From a virus: a stretch of DNA of 23,253 bases. Made by a program: the position numbers and the translations under genes. Within the stretch, counting starts at the first letter, position 1, and every line of letters starts with the position of its first letter. Below are positions 3,720 through 19,734 of the stretch, one piece after another. Location of the stretch: positions 1 to 23,253 of the IMG/VR virus record IMGVR_UViG_3300034374_005332, one strand, 5' to 3'. The notes under the pieces were generated by a model. That model ran no database searches and was not told where the DNA came from. It saw only the letters and a list, made by a program, of their open reading frames with translations.

Positions 3720-4946
3720 TTATATTACAATTTTAAAAACTGTTTGTTTTTTTAGTGTTTTATCAAGGCTTTTAGCATTGTAAGATGACAGTTCTTTGTT
3801 TATAGGATAACCATTAAATCCTTTAGTATGTTGCAAATCAATTCTAATATCATGCCTTTCCTTGTCTTTCATTATATATATGTTCTGAGCTGCTCTGGAG
3901 CTTAATAATAAAGCATTTTCACTATAACTATTAGCTCCAACTAATGAACTTGATCTTGCAAATAAATCAGTTATTTTAGTTTCATGTAGATGGCCACACA
4001 TCATAAAATCAAGTATTATTCCATTTCTTGCATATTTACTCATTACCTTTGCAATCTTATCATTATTCATATTACCGAGTTGATGTCCATGTATTAGCAA
4101 AACATTATGTCCATTAACCTCAACAACAAGTTCTAAGCCTCCAGATGTAATAAAATTAATATCTGGCAACAACATTCTAAGTATTTCAAATATCGTAAAA
4201 TCATAATTATCTGTTGCAACCATATCAACCCACCCAAGCTCATAAGCTCTTGATTCATTTCCACTAACACAACCAACACTAATATTTGCAACACTATTCA
4301 AATCTAAAATAAAATGCTTTAACAGATGAACACCTAAAAATGTTGCTTTTGCTCTATTTGTTGACATTGCCAGTTTTTCATCTAATCTTCTATCTGAGTT
4401 TAGTAAATCACCAGTTATTGCAATAAATATCTCATTGACATTATAAAACTTGGCATATTCTTTTATATGATGTGCAAACTTCTGTAATCTCTTAGATGCA
4501 ACCTCAAAATCATATTTGTTATTTTTTAAATCAACCAGCTCATTGAAATGAGTATCAGCTATTTGTACTATTATGGCTTGTTTGCCTTTGCTTGTGTGCT
4601 GTTTTATTGTTGTTTTAAGGCTCTCTGCTTTAAGCAAATCAATCAATGACTTATTATACTCAACTAATGCGTTTTCAAGCCTTGAATGTTCTCTAAATGA
4701 TTTATTTTTTATTCTATTAAGATCAGCTTGTTTCTGGCTTCTCTTTTGTAATAAAATATTGTGTTGGATTATTTCTTTATCAGCAATTACATATTGAATA
4801 ATGTCTTTTATTCTATGCCTTAATGTATGCTTTTTTACTTTAAAATGATATTTATCAATAAGATGTTGAGCAATGGCTTGATAACCATTCCCATTCCAAA
4901 ATAAAGAAACTATTTCATCTTTATATTCTAAATATTTTGATTCCAT
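3720..4946 (-). CDS. Metallophosphoesterase with N-terminal HTH-like region
   Basis: The 408-residue protein shows all five calcineurin-type phosphoesterase motifs: D131-x-H133 (ADTHF), GD180 (GDLLNSD), GN230E, H286-x-H288 (IHGHQ) and GH319LH321E, which together bind two metal ions. Residues 1 to 55 resemble a helix-turn-helix (NGNGYQAIAQHLIDKY, then a basic second helix), and 60 to 115 is a charged, coiled-coil-like linker. The catalytic domain spans about 122 to 365. It could act as a nuclease or phosphodiesterase; the substrate cannot be read. It follows the endolysin directly (TAAATG junction) and is the last gene before the late terminator, an unusual place for a DNA-processing enzyme. 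Confidence 0.85.
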   Translation of the reverse strand: MESKYLEYKDEIVSLFWNGNGYQAIAQHLIDKYHFKVKKHTLRHRIKDIIQYVIADKEIIQHNILLQKRSQKQADLNRIKNKSFREHSRLENALVEYNKSLIDLLKAESLKTTIKQHTSKGKQAIIVQIADTHFNELVDLKNNKYDFEVASKRLQKFAHHIKEYAKFYNVNEIFIAITGDLLNSDRRLDEKLAMSTNRAKATFLGVHLLKHFILDLNSVANISVGCVSGNESRAYELGWVDMVATDNYDFTIFEILRMLLPDINFITSGGLELVVEVNGHNVLLIHGHQLGNMNNDKIAKVMSKYARNGIILDFMMCGHLHETKITDLFARSSSLVGANSYSENALLLSSRAAQNIYIMKDKERHDIRIDLQHTKGFNGYPINKELSSYNAKSLDKTLKKQTVFKIVI

Positions 4947-9500: not shown

Positions 9501-12343
9501 AAATTAAAAGTATCACCAGTTTTAAAAACAGCTGAGCCAATAGCTTCAATTGGAACAGAACTTAATGATTTTTGGTCTTTTAAAGTTATGTAAGTAATAT
9601 TACCAGTAAATGTTGTTCCAGCTTGGAACTTAATTAAACTTGAGCCTTCACAATCTAAATAAATTGAGTAATCACCAGAAGATGTTATTGATTGACTTGT
9701 TCCACTTGTTCCAGCTTTTACTAATAATGTCCCAGCTGTAACCTCAACTTGAAAATTTACTTGATATGTTAATCCTTGAGTTAATACTGATTGTGTTAAT
9801 TCACTTGTTGAGCCAGTTGCAGCAAACTTTGCTTTCTTTGCTGTTGTATCAATACTCCAGCCAGTTCCTAATGACCAACCAACAGCTGTATTAAAATTAC
9901 CATTTACAGCGACATTAGAGCCAGTTGCTGGAATAGTTGTTCTTATATATGCTAATGGACTGTTTTGGGATAATGCTTGTGCCATTGGACTTGGAGACAT
10001 TCCACTTGATGCTGGTGAGCCACTTTGTGAGCCTCCCATACTTCCCATTCCATTGGATTGTGTTGTTGTTGTTGGGACATCTCTTATAATTTGGTAACCC
10101 TCATAATCCCATTCATCTAATAAAGTATAAAAAGAGCCTCTTCTAAAGAAATATTCTGGATCAGTTCCATCTCTTGTTTCTCTTAATTTACCAATTGGAT
10201 TAACATATCTTGGTCTTATCACACCACCTTGGTCTTCATTTTTATTAGCAACACCAACAGCTAATCTCATTGAAGGGGATATAATTATTTTAGTTTGTCC
10301 ACTAAAAAATTCATCAATTAACATTGCAGTAAATGTCTTTGTGCCAGTTAAAATCCCTCTTCCCCATTCACCACTTGGCTCAGTATTTACATAAGTAGAG
10401 CCATTAAATACTTGTAAACTACTTGGAGCAAACTCTAAAGAATCACCCCACAATAATGTTCCAAAATTATATTGTTCTGAATTTTGTTTTGCTTGTGTGT
10501 TTGAATTTATAACATTAAAAGTTTCTCCATTAGATGCACTTTGAGCATTATTTAGTGTTTGTAATAATCCAATAAATGGTGATGTTGTTGCAAATCTAAT
10601 GTCTGGACTTACTGTTCCAGCATTAAAACCAGCTGGATTGCTTATTGAACTAATAGTAACTTGACCTTGTTGGTCCACTAATGTGTTTGACCAACTAACT
10701 GTTCCAGACATAACACCACTACCAGCTGGTAATTGAATTGCTGTTCCAGGATTTCTCATTCTTTGTGGACTACCATATCTACTAAAATTAAGATAAAATG
10801 AACCTGGATTTTGACTGCCAGTTCCATAATCATCAATATCTAAAAAGAAATTCCATGCTCCACTCATTGAGATAGCATTCCCATTTTCATCTACAAATGG
10901 AATTTGCTGTTCAAAACCAATATGTCCATAAACATTAGTTAATTTAGAACTTATAATGTATTTTGGTGCTCTATTTCCTAAGGGAGTCCAGTTTGCAGAA
11001 TCAACCCAAAAATAATTACCAGTTCCAGAATCATATTGTAAATAATAAGTTGTAATAACTCCAGTGTTTGGATCTTCTTGTGCTGCATAAAAATTAAACT
11101 TAATAGCACACCACCACCCATTAGTGTGACCATTTGGAAAATTTGGAGCATTAGACAAATCCCATGTCCAATCTAATGGAATAGATAAAAATAAAAAATC
11201 AGCAGCTGAAGGGCTGTTTATTGTGCCTTGAAAAACCTCTTGTGTTGTTGCTGTTCCACCAAATGGAAATCCACCATAATAACTTTTAGATGAAAAACTT
11301 AAAAAATCAGCATTTACTTGTTTTATAAGAGGCAAATAATCATATTTTGTTCCAGATAGTTTACTTATTTTATCATTTTGTATTGTTTGTTCATATCTTG
11401 TGTAATATGTACTACCTAAATGGTTTTGGCTTCCTTGATAAGCACCAGTATTAGAATACAATCTTGAATTATTATTTACTGGAGTTGATATTGTTCCAGA
11501 TTCATTTGTAATATATTCTGGTATTTGAACAATCCAAAACTCATGCTTCCAATAAGTTATTCTTGCACCCCAATGTCTTAATAGTTCTTTTAAAACATTA
11601 TAACAATTATCTGGGTAAAAAACTCCTTGGTCATCTTTTCTATGGAACATGGAAACAGCACACTTTGTTTTATGTAATGGATCAGAGCTTTGACCAGTTG
11701 CATTCATTTCTCCATTATACCAGTTAACAGATGTTGTAAATCCATAGTTTTGTGATGCTCCTTGATTAGTTAATGCAGCACCACTTTTTGCAAGTATTTC
11801 TCTAATCCAATAAATATAAGTTGCTGGACCAAAATACATATTTTCTTGAGCATAATTTCCCTGAACTCTTTCCTCAAATGGAGGAGTTCCACCAGTTACA
11901 CCTAAATCAACAAAATCAATGTCTTTCAATAATGATAAGCCATCAACAAATTTTAAATGCTCTTCATAAGGAAAATATTTATCAACTCCAGAGCCAATAT
12001 CCATAACCAAAAAACCACTCCATAATGGAGCAACTGCTGAATGACCAGATTGTGTACTTCTATAAATATGCACATAAACTTGCCTTTCTTGATAATTGTT
12101 TCTTAAATCATCAATAAATAAAGAATCTAAATAATTCTCAACTAAATATGGTATTTTACATGATGAACTTATTATTGGTGAAAACCTATCTTCTTGATCA
12201 GTTTCATATTCAATAACAGGACCTCCAGCACCCATTACTAATTCAAGAGCAGAGCCAGTATAATCTTCAAGAAAAATCTCTAAATAATAATCTAAATTGT
12301 TGTTACTCTTATATGATGAAAAATACTTTTTTCCAAATGCCAT
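6524..12343 (-). CDS. Giant tail tip / tail fibre protein with C-terminal repeats
   Basis: The 1939-residue protein follows the tape measure gene, the usual place for tail-tip and receptor-binding proteins. The first ~700 residues are rich in Trp, Tyr and Gly (for example LWSGFLVMDIGSG) and resemble the tail-tip proteins of Bacteroidetes siphophages. A Ser/Gly/Pro/Met-rich linker lies at about 755 to 795 (GSMGGSQSGSPASSG). Residues about 815 to 930 look like a jelly-roll carbohydrate-binding domain (NGNFNTAVGWSLGTGW). From about 1060 to the end it has some ten copies of a fibre motif of the type GNVGIGTTSPxEKLxVxG, partly repeated at DNA level, and it ends VVTRTIASYE. No S74-type autoproteolytic chaperone domain is seen. 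It probably forms the trimeric receptor-binding fibre. Confidence 0.85.
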   Translation of the reverse strand: MAFGKKYFSSYKSNNNLDYYLEIFLEDYTGSALELVMGAGGPVIEYETDQEDRFSPIISSSCKIPYLVENYLDSLFIDDLRNNYQERQVYVHIYRSTQSGHSAVAPLWSGFLVMDIGSGVDKYFPYEEHLKFVDGLSLLKDIDFVDLGVTGGTPPFEERVQGNYAQENMYFGPATYIYWIREILAKSGAALTNQGASQNYGFTTSVNWYNGEMNATGQSSDPLHKTKCAVSMFHRKDDQGVFYPDNCYNVLKELLRHWGARITYWKHEFWIVQIPEYITNESGTISTPVNNNSRLYSNTGAYQGSQNHLGSTYYTRYEQTIQNDKISKLSGTKYDYLPLIKQVNADFLSFSSKSYYGGFPFGGTATTQEVFQGTINSPSAADFLFLSIPLDWTWDLSNAPNFPNGHTNGWWCAIKFNFYAAQEDPNTGVITTYYLQYDSGTGNYFWVDSANWTPLGNRAPKYIISSKLTNVYGHIGFEQQIPFVDENGNAISMSGAWNFFLDIDDYGTGSQNPGSFYLNFSRYGSPQRMRNPGTAIQLPAGSGVMSGTVSWSNTLVDQQGQVTISSISNPAGFNAGTVSPDIRFATTSPFIGLLQTLNNAQSASNGETFNVINSNTQAKQNSEQYNFGTLLWGDSLEFAPSSLQVFNGSTYVNTEPSGEWGRGILTGTKTFTAMLIDEFFSGQTKIIISPSMRLAVGVANKNEDQGGVIRPRYVNPIGKLRETRDGTDPEYFFRRGSFYTLLDEWDYEGYQIIRDVPTTTTQSNGMGSMGGSQSGSPASSGMSPSPMAQALSQNSPLAYIRTTIPATGSNVAVNGNFNTAVGWSLGTGWSIDTTAKKAKFAATGSTSELTQSVLTQGLTYQVNFQVEVTAGTLLVKAGTSGTSQSITSSGDYSIYLDCEGSSLIKFQAGTTFTGNITYITLKDQKSLSSVPIEAIGSAVFKTGDTFNLINSNDDTILPLTVTSNQGSGDTTISVSSTPLYEDIDNGSYLLINQDDLSEQYQNKTKGTVGGFDITATSIDSGSVAISSYIDDDTFATASVNSLATSESIKAYVDGQAGHDETLQQVTDNGNTTTNSIMIGSSSSPNSKLQINVGTDQNIGFNSSSNLARISSYNDAFSASSPLLINGSDIRFTISVAEKMRLTSGGKLGIGTSSPNRYLTVNSGAENFVAQFTSTDDKASILIEDDDTLNYIHSKDSYLSMGSQSDLHVNNLNISTTGNVGIGTTSPSEKLHVVGDALITGDSHADAFKPAVAANPIKFKNFASTEVARITDGGNLLVGGTVLTNAQGWGKNLQIINSGSNGASLSVKDLNNEYNLATYGANFFISAGAEERLTIYGYPAAKVGQLSLPSYGSGTFTGTETYFLAVTSSGDVVEADSSALPGGPYLPLTGGTLSGSLTGTTATFSGRATFNGDIYLEGANKYIYLNTGGVSGLWQEDNFDVRFGTNNSEKMRLTSSGNLLIGTTTDSGEKLVVNGNAKFADQVTIPATPVASTDAASKSYVDAQVGSADTLQEVTDNGNTTTNSIMIGSSSSPVSTLDVDGTITLKSDSENKLYRATTSPANGTSTNTTVLLGRQIDLYALDDIVLRTGTSSSDDIIFFAGNSEKVRMKGNGNVGIGTTSPSAKIVVSNSQKGLEMNPVGGTNDNPYIQSYNRSNSSYEDITIYAKNQHFNIGATNAMTIKNNRNVLIGTTTDYGGKLNIHDGYIMVNGGTTSNTNREAVLWGRSQVGASIAQINVQGDQWQFGGGGVIDTSPTLILDYGDNSATFSGNVLIGTTTDNGEKLQVEGKIKLSSWIQGNSSTNTLFSSNSEGILLQTPGNTANNNDSKIYFRNSSTTVRHTFDTNNGKVIFTGELTGTSANFSGNVSIGGTAGAVYKLDIVGKQRVQSVLELEDVLTLNAISTPSDPASGKSSIYMDSADGAIKVKINVGGTVVTRTIASYE
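7016..7044 (-). repeat. Direct repeat A, copy 1 (29 nt) within fibre gene
   Basis: The 29 bases are identical to those at 7268 to 7296. They encode part of the NVLIGTTTD fibre motif. Identity at third codon positions suggests recent duplication or gene conversion. Confidence 0.8.
7268..7296 (-). repeat. Direct repeat A, copy 2 (29 nt) within fibre gene
   Basis: Identical to 7016 to 7044, in the same frame of the fibre repeat. A related but diverged copy lies near 7950. Confidence 0.8.
7485..7514 (-). repeat. Direct repeat B, copy 1 (30 nt) within fibre gene
   Basis: The 30 bases are identical to 8667 to 8696 and encode GNVGIGTTSP. Codon use is the same in both copies. Confidence 0.8.
8667..8696 (-). 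repeat. Direct repeat B, copy 2 (30 nt) within fibre gene
   Basis: Identical to 7485 to 7514, about 1.2 kb away in the same gene; a diverged copy lies near 8884. Confidence 0.8.
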
Positions 12344-12346
12344 AAA

Positions 12347-14161
12347 TTATACAGTTCTTAAACGATTAATTCCACCTCTTTGATTACTTATAAATATGTC
12401 GTTTCCACTTATTCTACCATAAACCTCAACTTGCTGAACACCACCAGCACCATTTATCATTCCTTTTAATTTATCTAATGGAGCAACTACTTCTGGATTA
12501 GATGCTGTTGTTCCAGCACCCTCACCAACTAAAGCCATTGTCGGACCAGTAACCAAACCCCCAGTTGCTAATCCTAAAACTTTTCCTTTTGCTAATTCAA
12601 ATGCAGCCTTAACAGTTGTTGCATCTCCTAATAATAATTTGATTGCCATTATAACTGCTAATTGAACTAATAGTTGTTTAATAGCTATTTTTAAGTTTTC
12701 AATAAAAGATTTAAAAAAACCTTCTGTGCTATAAGCTGCACTTGTTAAAGCACTTGTCATAATGTTTTCGAACATTCCCATAGCAGCATTAAACTCTTTT
12801 TGTTTTTTTGTTAATTCTGATATTGTTTCACCAACTTGGTTTAATGGTCCAATAAATTTCTCTGGATTAATAGCACTTAAAAAAGGAATACCTCCATTAT
12901 CACCTCTTCCATTTGCACCACCACCTCCACCACCTAATGAAAAAGGATTTGATAAAAAGCCCATTGCTTCTGCTAAATCTTTTGCTTGATTTTTTATAGC
13001 ATCTGCAAAACTTCCAAATTCATGTATATATTCTTTTGAATCTACTTTTAAATCTCTTATTTTATCAGATATTCCAAAAGCACCACCCATTCTGCCACCT
13101 AATAAATCAACAAAATCAGCAGCTGCTTCAACTAAAGCATTTCTCCACCAACTCCAATCAGATAATCTTTCTTTAAATGCTTCGTAATTTTCAAGTACAA
13201 ATATAAATCCAGCAACAATAGCTGTCAAGCCCATTACTATTATTCCACTTCTACTAAATAATCTTGCAAATACTTTGATTAAACTTCCACTTATTGACAA
13301 CAATGGTCCTAATGCAGCTGCTAACAATGTAATGTTTGCAATATTTGTTTTTAATATGGGATCCATATTTGTTAAAGATGCCACAAAACCTTTAGCCCAT
13401 TGTAATATTTTTTGAGCAACTGGCAACAACATTGTTCCAATTTCAACCCCTAAATCATTTAAATCTCCAGCTAATATTCTTGTTTGATTTGCAAAACCAC
13501 CAGATGTTCTTGCAAAATCACCAACAGCTTTTGAACTTTGCTTTAATGCTAATTGATAAGTTAATGTTGCTTTTTCTACTCTTGTTAATTCTTTAAATAC
13601 CTTTCCTTGATCTGTTGCAAATGATTTTAAATCAGCTTCTGTAATTGCAATTCCTAATGATTTTATAGATTCTCTTTCACCAAGCAAGGCTTTTGTTAAT
13701 GCTAATGATGCTCCTTCTGCTCCACCAGAAAAGTTTGTAAATGATGCTAAATCAACTGCTAATTCATTTACTTGTTTACTTAAATTAAGAGCCTCTCTTT
13801 CTGTAAATCCAAAACCAACTAATAAATCACCAGTATCACCAAGCATTTGTTTTGCTGCTTTACTTGATAACCCAAAAGAACTTTTAAAAACCCTTGCTGT
13901 TGCTTCTGCTTCTCTTTGAATACTACTAAAAACAGTTTTAAATTTAGCATCTGTTTCTTCAAAATCACTTGCCATTTTAACAGCAGCTGCTCCAAGGCCA
14001 ATAACTGGTATTGTGATGCTTCTTGTAAGTGTTTGCCCAGTTCTCTGCATAGATGCCCCAAACTTTCCAATGCTTCTTTGAGCCTTTTTCATTGCTTTGT
14101 CAAAGCCTCTTAAATCAGCTCCAAATGCAATAGTTAATAAACCAACACTCTTATTTGCCAT
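12347..14161 (-). CDS. Tape measure protein
   Basis: The protein is 604 residues from ATG 14161; a GTG at 14167 would add two residues. It starts MANKSVGLLTIAFGADLRGF, followed by KAMKKAQRSIGKFGASM, the typical opening of phage tape measure proteins that leads into the TP901 core region with LGLGAAAVKMASDFEE-like sequence (here IPVIGLGAAAVKMASDFEE). Hydrophobic segments occur at about residues 275 to 330 and near 490 to 515 (QLLVQLAVIMAIKLLL). A poly-Gly stretch is seen near residue 420. It sets tail length: at the usual ~0.15 nm per residue it predicts a tail somewhat under 100 nm. It overlaps the preceding chaperone frame by 11 nt. Confidence 0.9.
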   Translation of the reverse strand: MANKSVGLLTIAFGADLRGFDKAMKKAQRSIGKFGASMQRTGQTLTRSITIPVIGLGAAAVKMASDFEETDAKFKTVFSSIQREAEATARVFKSSFGLSSKAAKQMLGDTGDLLVGFGFTEREALNLSKQVNELAVDLASFTNFSGGAEGASLALTKALLGERESIKSLGIAITEADLKSFATDQGKVFKELTRVEKATLTYQLALKQSSKAVGDFARTSGGFANQTRILAGDLNDLGVEIGTMLLPVAQKILQWAKGFVASLTNMDPILKTNIANITLLAAALGPLLSISGSLIKVFARLFSRSGIIVMGLTAIVAGFIFVLENYEAFKERLSDWSWWRNALVEAAADFVDLLGGRMGGAFGISDKIRDLKVDSKEYIHEFGSFADAIKNQAKDLAEAMGFLSNPFSLGGGGGGANGRGDNGGIPFLSAINPEKFIGPLNQVGETISELTKKQKEFNAAMGMFENIMTSALTSAAYSTEGFFKSFIENLKIAIKQLLVQLAVIMAIKLLLGDATTVKAAFELAKGKVLGLATGGLVTGPTMALVGEGAGTTASNPEVVAPLDKLKGMINGAGGVQQVEVYGRISGNDIFISNQRGGINRLRTV

Positions 14162-14498
14162 GCTCACTCATTTTTTTAATATATTCAGCTTTTGCTTTCA
14201 ATTTCTCGTAATCTATTTTTTTATCCTTTTTATCCCACTCGAACTCAATCAAATCAGTTGGCTTTATTTTTTTTCCTTTTGCTATTTGAATATTTAGTAA
14301 CAAAGTAGTTTGCCATCTTGTTCTTTCCCACTTACTTCTTTCCCTTATATTCTCAAGCTCATAAAAGCCATCCAATTTATTCCAAAAATGTTTAGGCAAG
14401 TAATCATAAAACTCATTTACTCCCATGCCTAACTGTCCAAAAGCAATTCTCTCTAATTCTCGCCAAGAGAGTTTGTTTTTTACTTCTTGGCTTTCTGC
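14151..14498 (-). CDS. Tail assembly chaperone T domain, made by -1 frameshift (GT product)
   Basis: After the slip at 14498 to 14504 the new frame reads GCA GAA AGC... for 115 codons to the stop at 14151. It includes LSWRELERIAFGQLG and FWNKLDGFYE, matching the W..L...A...LG....FW.L pattern of phage tail chaperone C-terminal domains. With the 103 residues before the slip it gives a GT fusion of 218 residues. Independent translation from ATG 14426 would give only 91 residues and would drop the conserved SWRELERIAFGQLG part, so the frameshift is the better explanation. The domain binds the tape measure protein during tail tube assembly. The known analogue is lambda gpGT. Confidence 0.82.
   Translation of the reverse strand, partial: AESQEVKNKLSWRELERIAFGQLGMGVNEFYDYLPKHFWNKLDGFYELENIRERSKWERTRWQTTLLLNIQIAKGKKIKPTDLIEFEWDKKDKKIDYEKLKAKAEYIKKMSEHGK
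14462..14491 (-). promoter_or_regulatory. Frameshift-stimulating stem-loop
   Basis: In the minus-strand RNA GCCAAGA (14491 to 14485) pairs perfectly with UCUUGGC (14468 to 14462) around a 16-nt loop. It starts exactly 6 nt after the slippery heptamer, the spacing expected of a -1 frameshift stimulator, and spans the zero-frame stop codon. Confidence 0.75.
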
Positions 14499-14806
14499 TT
14501 TTTTTCAGTATTACCCCCCATTTGTTCAGCCAATATTTCCATAGCTTTTCCAATACTATCAAAATCACCATCTATCAAATCAGCCAAATCATCAACACTT
14601 AAATCACAATCTTGCTTTGCAGCTCTATGCCCATCCTCAATGCCACAATATATTAAAGTTAAAGCATCATCTAAAGTCATATCTACACCAAGTTTATCTA
14701 AGTCTTGTAGTGATGTATTTGTTTTAGATGAATATTTTCTCAAGGCATTAAAACCAAATTTAATTGGTAATTTTTCTTTATTTATTTCTATAAAAGTATA
14801 ATTCAT
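14480..14806 (-). CDS. Tail assembly chaperone (G protein)
   Basis: The 108-residue protein (MNYTFIEINKEKLPIKFGFNA at the start) has the N-terminal strand, the helix with ALRKYSSKT and the acidic helices (DDLADLIDGD) of phage tail assembly chaperones; the Ile/Leu-rich DALTLIYCGIEDG segment is also characteristic. It lies between tail tube and tape measure genes, the conserved position of lambda G/GT. Its 3' end carries the slippery sequence. It coats the tape measure protein during tail assembly and is absent from the virion. Its start region can pair with an upstream hairpin loop (14841 to 14852), so its translation may be controlled. Confidence 0.88.
   Translation of the reverse strand: MNYTFIEINKEKLPIKFGFNALRKYSSKTNTSLQDLDKLGVDMTLDDALTLIYCGIEDGHRAAKQDCDLSVDDLADLIDGDFDSIGKAMEILAEQMGGNTEKKQKAKK
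14498..14504 (-). promoter_or_regulatory. -1 ribosomal slippery heptamer A_AAA_AAG
   Basis: In the zero frame the codons are GAA AAA AAG, so the heptamer A AAA AAG is in the exact phase needed for tandem slippage. It is the same heptamer used by E. coli dnaX. The -1 frame has a TGA just before it and is then open for 115 codons. Confidence 0.85.
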
Positions 14807-14877: not shown

Positions 14878-15306
14878 TTAATTTACTGTTTGAGTTAACG
14901 AACCAGTCCCCTCAATTGTAAGTGAATATGTTGCAGTATCTTCTGTACCACCAGTTATACTAACAGATGTAATATAACCATTTCCAGCATAACTTATATC
15001 ATTTGTTGATGTATCACCAAATATAAATGAGACTTGTTGTCTTGCATTTAAAACATTTGTTTCTAAAGTATCATCAACTCCATCTGTTAAAGCTACACCA
15101 GATTTATTTGTCCAAGCATAAGCCCCATCAATATCAACTGAGTAATCTCTTAATCCCTCTAAAATTTCTTTGTATCCATTACTCTCTTTGTTTGTGATTT
15201 CTCTCGGTGAATGATTAACATTCAGTGTACAGTTTTGAGCAAATGCAACAAGATTAGTTGTTCCAGTGCTGTAAACTTTTATTTCAGTTCCATTTAAAAT
15301 AGCCAT
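14878..15306 (-). CDS. Major tail tube protein (TP901-1-like)
   Basis: The 142-residue protein begins MAILNGTEIKVYSTGTTN and shows the beta-rich pattern of phage major tail proteins of the TP901-1 type: HSPREITNKES near residues 32 to 43, the YKEILEGLRDYSVDIDG motif (tail proteins have a typical WxExlpGxrdwsvs segment here), and a C-terminal SVSITGGTEDTATYSLTIEGTG that matches the conserved G..e....s..leG.G pattern. It polymerises into the tail tube. The leader is A-rich (AATATAAAAAAGAAAAAAA before ATG), consistent with high expression. A structured hairpin follows the gene. Confidence 0.88.
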   Translation of the reverse strand: MAILNGTEIKVYSTGTTNLVAFAQNCTLNVNHSPREITNKESNGYKEILEGLRDYSVDIDGAYAWTNKSGVALTDGVDDTLETNVLNARQQVSFIFGDTSTNDISYAGNGYITSVSITGGTEDTATYSLTIEGTGSLTQTVN

Positions 15307-18645: not shown

Positions 18646-19734
18646 TTATTTTCTCTTTTTTAATTCAATATTTAATGAGAAAAGAGAGCCTCTCACTAAA
18701 TTGTTTTCTTTTTCTTCAATTTTTTCTTCTTTAGTTTCCTCAACTAAACTTTCTTGATATTCTTTTAATCCTCTTTTAGCAACTACTAAATCACTTTCAG
18801 CCATGTTGTAAGCTGGATAAGTTACTGGTGAAACATCATAAAGCCTATCTATTTTTTTTATTGTTCTAATGTTGTTGCCTTCATCATCAGTTGACCATTC
18901 ATCTTCTGCAACAGTAAATGCAAAAGAGCTTTGTGTTATATCACCTCGCTTCATTGAGATAGCTAAATCTTTTCCATAAGATGTTTCTGGCATTTCAAAT
19001 TCATACTTTAATCCCCTTTCATCAGCTGATAATTTTAATGTTCCAGATGTGCTTCTTGCAAGAATAAGATTTGGATCATGATTAATTAAACTACGAACAT
19101 CAGAAGAGTTAATTAAATCTTCATTAAACACTCCTCTTTCTACAAACTCATAGAAACCACCAAGATTATTTGATCTTGAATCATAAACACTTGCATAGCC
19201 AACAACAACATCTTTTCCATCATCTGTTGAATCAACTCTTGTTTCTACGTTAAAAATTCTTTTTTCCATATTATTATTATTTATATTTCTTACTCCTTTT
19301 TCTTCCTCTTCAATTATTTCTTTTCTTTTTCTTTCACTCCATTTAATAGCTGCATCACCACCCCACAAAGCCCAAGCTATTCTTCCAGCACTTGGAAAAC
19401 CATCCTCATCTGGAGTAAATCCTTCACCTTGTTTATCTACTTCATGCCTTTTTAAATAGCTAAACATTTTTGTTACTCTATCTGGAGTTAATGAATTGTC
19501 AATTATCATATTGGCCGTCTTTAATCCCACATCTGTTCCACCTCTTCCAAATTCAGCCCTCCATTCTTTTCCTTTCTTTGCCTCAGCAACCATTCCTTCT
19601 GTTGGAGTTAAATCTATATCAGACAATGCTCTGTAATTACTATTATCATCTTCAGCTTGTTTTTTAGAATCATATTTACAAGCCCCAGTTTCACCCCACT
19701 TCCATTTGCCATTAGCACATTTAAGTGATGGCAT
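18646..19734 (-). CDS. Three-part head protein with C-terminal HK97 prohead protease
   Basis: The preferred start is ATG 19734 (362 residues, MPSLKCANGKWKWGETG); a TTG nine bases upstream is possible. Part 1 (1 to ~30) is a small CANGKWKWGETGACKY module. Part 2 (~45 to 135) has EFGRGGTDVG, KRHEVDKQGEGF and GRIAWALWGGD, a module often found in phage head-region proteins. Part 3 (~156 to 362) is the prohead protease: VGYASVYDSRSNN, EFVERGVF, catalytic His219 in LINHDPN and Ser269/270 in TQSSFAF. The protease cuts the scaffold from the capsid. The start overlaps the portal end by 14 nt. An in-frame ATG at 19269 lies exactly at the part 2/part 3 border. Confidence 0.88.
   Translation of the reverse strand: MPSLKCANGKWKWGETGACKYDSKKQAEDDNSNYRALSDIDLTPTEGMVAEAKKGKEWRAEFGRGGTDVGLKTANMIIDNSLTPDRVTKMFSYLKRHEVDKQGEGFTPDEDGFPSAGRIAWALWGGDAAIKWSERKRKEIIEEEEKGVRNINNNNMEKRIFNVETRVDSTDDGKDVVVGYASVYDSRSNNLGGFYEFVERGVFNEDLINSSDVRSLINHDPNLILARSTSGTLKLSADERGLKYEFEMPETSYGKDLAISMKRGDITQSSFAFTVAEDEWSTDDEGNNIRTIKKIDRLYDVSPVTYPAYNMAESDLVVAKRGLKEYQESLVEETKEEKIEEKENNLVRGSLFSLNIELKKRK

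Follow-up and report, generated by a model that had tools for sequence, protein, structure and literature searches.

A conserved, probable −1 frameshift signal joining the predicted tail chaperone ORFs G and T in a probable Bacteroidota phage and its relatives

The window analysed here is a 23,253-nt stretch of viral DNA (IMG/VR record IMGVR_UViG_3300034374_005332, positions 1 to 23,253), whose minus strand carries a typical HK97-fold siphophage structural block in the order terminase, portal, protease, capsid, connectors, tail terminator, tail tube, G, T and tape measure. G and T are two overlapping ORFs flanked by the major tail and tape measure genes. The features of this region are as follows.

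14878..15306, minus strand: major tail (tube) protein, upstream of G (Phage_tail_2, E 1e-9; phrog_1407)
14480..14806, minus strand: ORF G, predicted tail assembly chaperone, zero-frame product of 108 aa (phrog_2115 tail protein, E 9e-6; phrog_183 tail chaperone, E 0.03; fold model)
14514..14519, minus strand: SD-like GGGGGG ending 9 nt 5' of the heptamer, putative upstream stimulator (anti-SD duplex, -10.6 kcal/mol)
14505..14507, minus strand: TGA closing the -1 frame directly 5' of the heptamer (sequence)
14498..14504, minus strand: slippery heptamer A_AAA_AAG in zero-frame phase (sequence; conservation in relatives)
14492..14497, minus strand: 6-nt spacer CAGAAA (exactly 6 nt in 106/106 sites)
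14485..14491, minus strand: 5' stem arm GCCAAGA, core GCCAAG (folding; conservation)
14480..14482, minus strand: zero-frame stop TAA of G, in the hairpin loop (sequence)
14462..14468, minus strand: 3' stem arm UCUUGGC, core CUUGGC, its last base overlapped by the Arg codon CGA (folding; conservation)
14154..14498, minus strand: T extension in the -1 frame, 115 aa, predicted to be made only as the C-terminal part of a 218-aa G-T fusion (phrog_16333, E 1e-27)
12347..14161, minus strand: tape measure protein, its start overlapping the end of T (phrog_1535, E 2.5e-28)

The virus is a tailed phage, probably of Bacteroidota bacteria. An earlier note, made from the sequence, had described it as Bacteroidetes-like, which agrees with relatives confined to Bacteroidota phages and genomes and with gene starts devoid of an SD: the element was sought at 20 gene starts in the window and found at none, the best duplex reaching -3.3 kcal/mol. 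The terminase is no guide to the host, as it shares ~44% identity with phages across many phyla.

The predicted structure of G (pLDDT 83) has a tail assembly chaperone fold. Its BFVD hits are models of phage tail assembly chaperones (E 8.5e-6, prob 1.00), and among solved chains compared with VIA-align the top match is the HK97 tail assembly chaperone gp13 (2ob9; Z 4.3, weak), followed by Bacillus YqbN (3klu; Z 3.8, weak). Foldseek gave no match for G in the PDB at E <= 0.001, so the likeness to HK97 gp13 depends on VIA-align, the second aligner, together with the predicted viral models. A tblastn search with G against a phage collection returned no match at E <= 0.1. T gave a poor model (pTM 0.45), and its profile found nothing significant among the sequences of solved structures. 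The conserved T-domain pattern put forward previously holds in part: T belongs to a solid family, phrog_16333, whereas its match to the Pfam family of lambda T, Phage_tail_T, is sub-threshold (E 0.056; 14.3 bits, where the cut-off is 25.9). The phrog_16333 profile starts at T residue 18, as expected if database entries begin at internal codons.

On the minus strand, the last codons of G read ACT GAA AAA AAG CAG AAA GCC AAG AAG TAA. The heptamer A_AAA_AAG at 14504-14498 is, as had been claimed, in the correct X_XXY_YYZ phase, the one that tandem -1 slippage requires. The TGA at 14507-14505 shuts the -1 frame, which opens at 14504 and meets no further stop until the TAA at 14153-14151; any shift must therefore fall within 14504-14480 (25 nt). 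Slippage at the heptamer is predicted to give a product reading ...TEKK|AESQEVKNKLSWRELERIAFGQLG... of 103 + 115 = 218 aa; when recomputed, the lengths of both predicted products (108 aa for G and 218 aa for G-T) were the same as those given before. In-frame A_AAA_AAG is not rare in itself, with four occurrences in 15 genes of this A-rich window. The others on the minus strand, at 18661 near the end of the protease gene, at 12332 at the start of a 1939-aa tail gene and at 4836 in an exonuclease gene, probably arose by chance in A-rich DNA. A second heptamer, A_AAA_AAC, lies at 14481-14475 on the minus strand, in phase in the -1 frame within the hairpin loop, and is not conserved in relatives. 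The heptamer alone is thus unremarkable, and what exceeds chance is the combination of elements together with their conservation.

Downstream of the heptamer lies a perfect stem of 7 bp with a 16-nt loop. It begins exactly 6 nt past the heptamer, as described previously, but it does not cover the stop codon of G, since 14482-14480 sits in the loop. The folding energy of the 37-nt element is -11.1 kcal/mol, compared with a mean of -2.9 for shuffled versions (z -4.3), and none of 200 shuffles was as good. No larger structure around the stem was detected in a 98-nt fold (z -0.6), which is expected to be blind to so small a hairpin.

Relatives were collected by IMG/VR scans using G, T and T-profile queries and were matched by protein patterns; a few early query patterns overlapped the signal region, and later ones lay wholly in the T protein, away from the signal. 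The close group comprises 456 locus records, many of them on the same contigs, which reduce to 106 distinct sites. As a MAFFT alignment misplaced the stems, pair counts were taken from an ungapped 43-nt set. T is at -1 relative to G in all 456 records. Neither a fused single frame nor T at +1 was found among them, G having been sought only in the two other frames and every record having one, at -1; homologues with an intact single frame or a broken heptamer, the kind that would speak against a programmed shift, were likewise absent. The heptamer, expected to be conserved amid variable flanks, is indeed kept at every distinct site, as A_AAA_AAG in 93 and as G_GGA_AAG, the heptamer of lambda, in the other 13. 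At 75 of the 106 sites a stop shuts the -1 frame no more than 3 nt from the heptamer.

The spacer of exactly 6 nt and a 6-bp stem are present at all 106 sites, with no exception. Stems are of the type GCCAAG/CTTGGC (96 sites), GCCAAC/GTTGGC (9) or GCCAAG/CTTGGT with a G-U pair (1), the change from the first to the second being compensatory; all stem cells (100%) are paired, which none of 500 shuffles equalled. Loop length is 18 nt (88 sites), 21 nt (17) or 24 nt (1). On a T tree, which was built from short proteins and has many weak branches, at least five changes of heptamer type are counted, with one of the stem pair and eleven of loop length; the sites include every one of the four heptamer-stem combinations. 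With one compensatory flip on the tree and four of the six pairs invariant, covariation alone is thin evidence, and site counts are not independent since the sites are phylogenetically related. One relative (L408, ~450-510) has a duplicated 5' stem arm (GGCCAAGAAGGCCAAGAAG), which allows two hairpin registers.

The stem and heptamer could also be by-products of protein constraint in overlapping coding sequence, any shift needing the heptamer only. The 5' arm does lie within doubly coding sequence, and the Trp codon of the 3' arm would be invariant anyway. However, the codon after this Trp, which the 3' arm overlaps, encodes R (44), Q (33), P (20), H (5), L (3) or C (1) across the 106 sites, and its first base is C in 105 of them, a residue varying over five amino acids while the base stays the same; the lone exception, TGT, still gives a G-U pair. 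Where the residue is Arg, the codon is CGN in 44/44 cases against 33/533 elsewhere in T ORFs, and in the genes of the window AGA/AGG make up 201 of 208 Arg codons. No Fisher p-value should be attached to this contrast, since the sites share ancestry. Judged by codon choice, protein constraint does not explain the CGN bias at this position. A Ser/Thr codon also varies in step with the 5' arm, the two changing jointly. We therefore regard the by-product explanation as very improbable, and a programmed shift as the better account of the hairpin.

A separate T protein, made by internal initiation or by reinitiation past the G stop, would agree with the practice of annotators of related phages, who call T as its own ORF, and with the close overlap of the G stop and the T frame. 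An independent start is nonetheless hard to place: at 105 of the 106 sites the T frame lacks any ATG, GTG or TTG upstream of the conserved Trp (a GTG was found at one site and an ATG at none), and the usual first ATG falls 13 codons past this Trp, within the conserved region. These observations leave independent initiation of T with only a few chances in a hundred, and favour expression of T by frameshifting from G.

T homologues are also found in more distant phages (Cellulophaga phage phi39:1 and Bacteroides phages) and in Bacteroidota genomes or MAGs (Tenacibaculum, Polaribacter, Crocinitomix, Alistipes and Prevotella). Wherever the G-T boundary is readable, T lies at -1 in these distant relatives, phi39:1 excepted. 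The slip site is G_GGA_AAG in Tenacibaculum, Polaribacter, Crocinitomix and locus L162. In the Bacteroides, Prevotella and Alistipes groups it is an A9 run holding an in-phase A_AAA_AAA, and no significant stem follows; the A9 loci of the Bacteroides-Prevotella set are L160, L159, L171, L172, L174, L178, L182 and L185. Most distant relatives have no stem. A Polaribacter MAG (L177, ~1000-1035) carries an unrelated 10-bp perfect stem (TAGATCAGAG/CTCTGATCTA) a few nt past G_GGA_AAG (z -4.3), which is an independent solution of the same design. The sole exception in frame is phi39:1 (L158, KC821626), where an A8 run lies at ~2943-2960 and T is in the +1/-2 frame relative to G; this reflects either a homopolymer sequencing error or another type of shift. 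Its G and T counterparts are annotated as plain hypothetical proteins, and their neighbours are marked as structural proteins detected by MS. That G and T carry no such mark is consistent with chaperones absent from virions. Our literature search found no papers on frameshifting in the tail genes of Bacteroides or Cellulophaga phages, which does not show that none exist.

The A runs bear on transcriptional slippage, in which RNA polymerase would add an A within the A7 run and yield a mixed mRNA pool for G and G-T. The window does have an A7 run, two of the 106 close sites have A8, and the distant Bacteroides-Prevotella relatives combine A9 runs with no detectable hairpin; polymerase slippage is possible at those A9 runs. 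Runs of A6 or shorter are too short for polymerase slippage, yet 26 of the 106 close sites have only A6, and the 13 with G_GGA_AAG have at most AAA. Slippage, moreover, has no need of the heptamer phase, the 6-nt spacer or the stem, and all three are conserved. As an explanation for the phage studied here it is accordingly highly unlikely, and ribosomal frameshifting accounts better for the conserved elements.

The signal described in the earlier note, consisting of heptamer, spacer and stem, stands, but the note overlooked the SD-like GGGGGG 9 nt upstream. Known SD stimulators of -1 shifts lie 9-14 nt upstream of the slip site (PMC5009743). Only 0.4% of coding windows pair with the anti-SD as strongly as this element (-10.6 kcal/mol), and 85 of the 106 relative sites reach -6.9 kcal/mol or lower, against a background of 3.6% of this phage's coding windows. 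Anti-SD pairing is best for 8-mers whose ends fall 6-10 nt 5' of the heptamer, with means of -5 to -7 kcal/mol; elsewhere in the last 60 nt of G the mean is -3.4 kcal/mol or weaker. Within the same G ORFs, matched control windows have a mean of -2.1 kcal/mol, against -8.4 at the SD-like site; synonymous shuffles of that site, however, average -7.4. A conserved Gly-Gly thus accounts for much of the signal, which falls short of proving selection at the RNA level. That the SD-like element contributes to the shift is plausible, though not established.

Ribosomes of Bacteroidia sequester their anti-SD (PMC9976891), and SD function in this lineage is doubtful. SD-dependent prfB sites are kept in Bacteroidia, with low efficiency in F. 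johnsoniae (PMC8710568; PMC12421855). One tentative and rather unlikely idea is that elongating ribosomes paused by the hairpin expose the anti-SD and use the SD-like element to set the ratio of G to G-T, even though these ribosomes ignore SD at initiation. An SD-like site in an otherwise SD-less genome offers a probe of whether Bacteroidia ribosomes can use an occluded anti-SD during elongation, a question that was raised for F. johnsoniae prfB and becomes testable here.

Taken together, the modelled chaperone fold of G, the gene order and the conserved signal favour the tail chaperone G/GT pair proposed earlier. By far the strongest explanation of the sequence is a programmed -1 ribosomal frameshift at A_AAA_AAG yielding both G and G-T, and we assign it a probability of about 0.93. 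Ribosomes on GAA AAA AAG would be held by the hairpin beginning 6 nt downstream, and the upstream GGGGGG may add to the hold by pairing with the 3' end of the 16S rRNA. Two lysyl-tRNAs would then re-pair on AAA AAA, and translation would run on in the T frame beyond the G stop. A single start would thereby serve two tail assembly chaperones, with most ribosomes making G (108 aa) and a minority making G-T (218 aa). We infer the occurrence of the shift, its efficiency and the roles of the two proteins, the latter from lambda and HK97 biology: on the lambda model, the tape measure protein would be the binding partner of the G part, and the T part would bring in the tail tube subunit.

In the records of related phages that were read, G and T are entered as a pair of hypothetical ORFs, and the fusion protein is thereby hidden. 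The present analysis documents G/GT frameshifting, as predicted from conserved signals, for a widespread group of uncultured, probably Bacteroidota phages. The relatives amount to a natural experiment, in which the heptamer swaps repeatedly while the 6-nt spacer and stem stay fixed, and distant members have A9 and no stem.

In lambda, gpG and gpGT are tail assembly chaperones (Levin 1993; Xu 2004, 2013, 2014, summarised in PMC5009743). The phage described here shares with lambda the gene order tube-G-T-tape measure and, as predicted, a -1 shift near the end of G with a short and a long chaperone from one start, and 13 of its 106 relatives have the lambda-type G_GGA_AAG. Unlike lambda, it has A_AAA_AAG and a conserved hairpin at +6, and its T matches the lambda T family only below threshold. 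HK97 gp13 (2ob9) and Bacillus YqbN (3klu), the best two solved matches of the G model, share only 6-9% identity with G, with Z in the weak range.

The slip sequence was rightly called dnaX-type, as A_AAA_AAG and a stable 3' stem-loop a few nt downstream are both present. The E. coli dnaX cassette likewise combines A_AAA_AAG, an SD-like element ~10 nt upstream and a simple 3' stem-loop, and A_AAA_AAG ranks among the most shift-prone heptamers in E. coli work (PMC5009743). The dnaX cassette serves another gene and purpose, however, and its shift leads to a shorter product, whereas here the product would be longer. F. johnsoniae prfB also has an internal SD-like element at its shift site in a lineage that rarely initiates by SD (PMC8710568; PMC12421855), but its shift is +1 rather than -1, in a host gene, and autoregulatory.

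Also close are Bacteroides phages F4, F2 and Bacuni_F1 and Cellulophaga phage phi39:1, which have a homologous T after a G counterpart in the same position (read in F4 and phi39:1). They differ in that F4 has an A9 run without a stem, that phi39:1 has its A8 run with T in the +1/-2 frame, and that G and T are annotated as two hypothetical ORFs. G/GT frameshifting has long been known from lambda, and the locus described here is probably a further instance, from phages that have received little study; its signal resembles that of dnaX, and the comparative record behind it is unusually clean.
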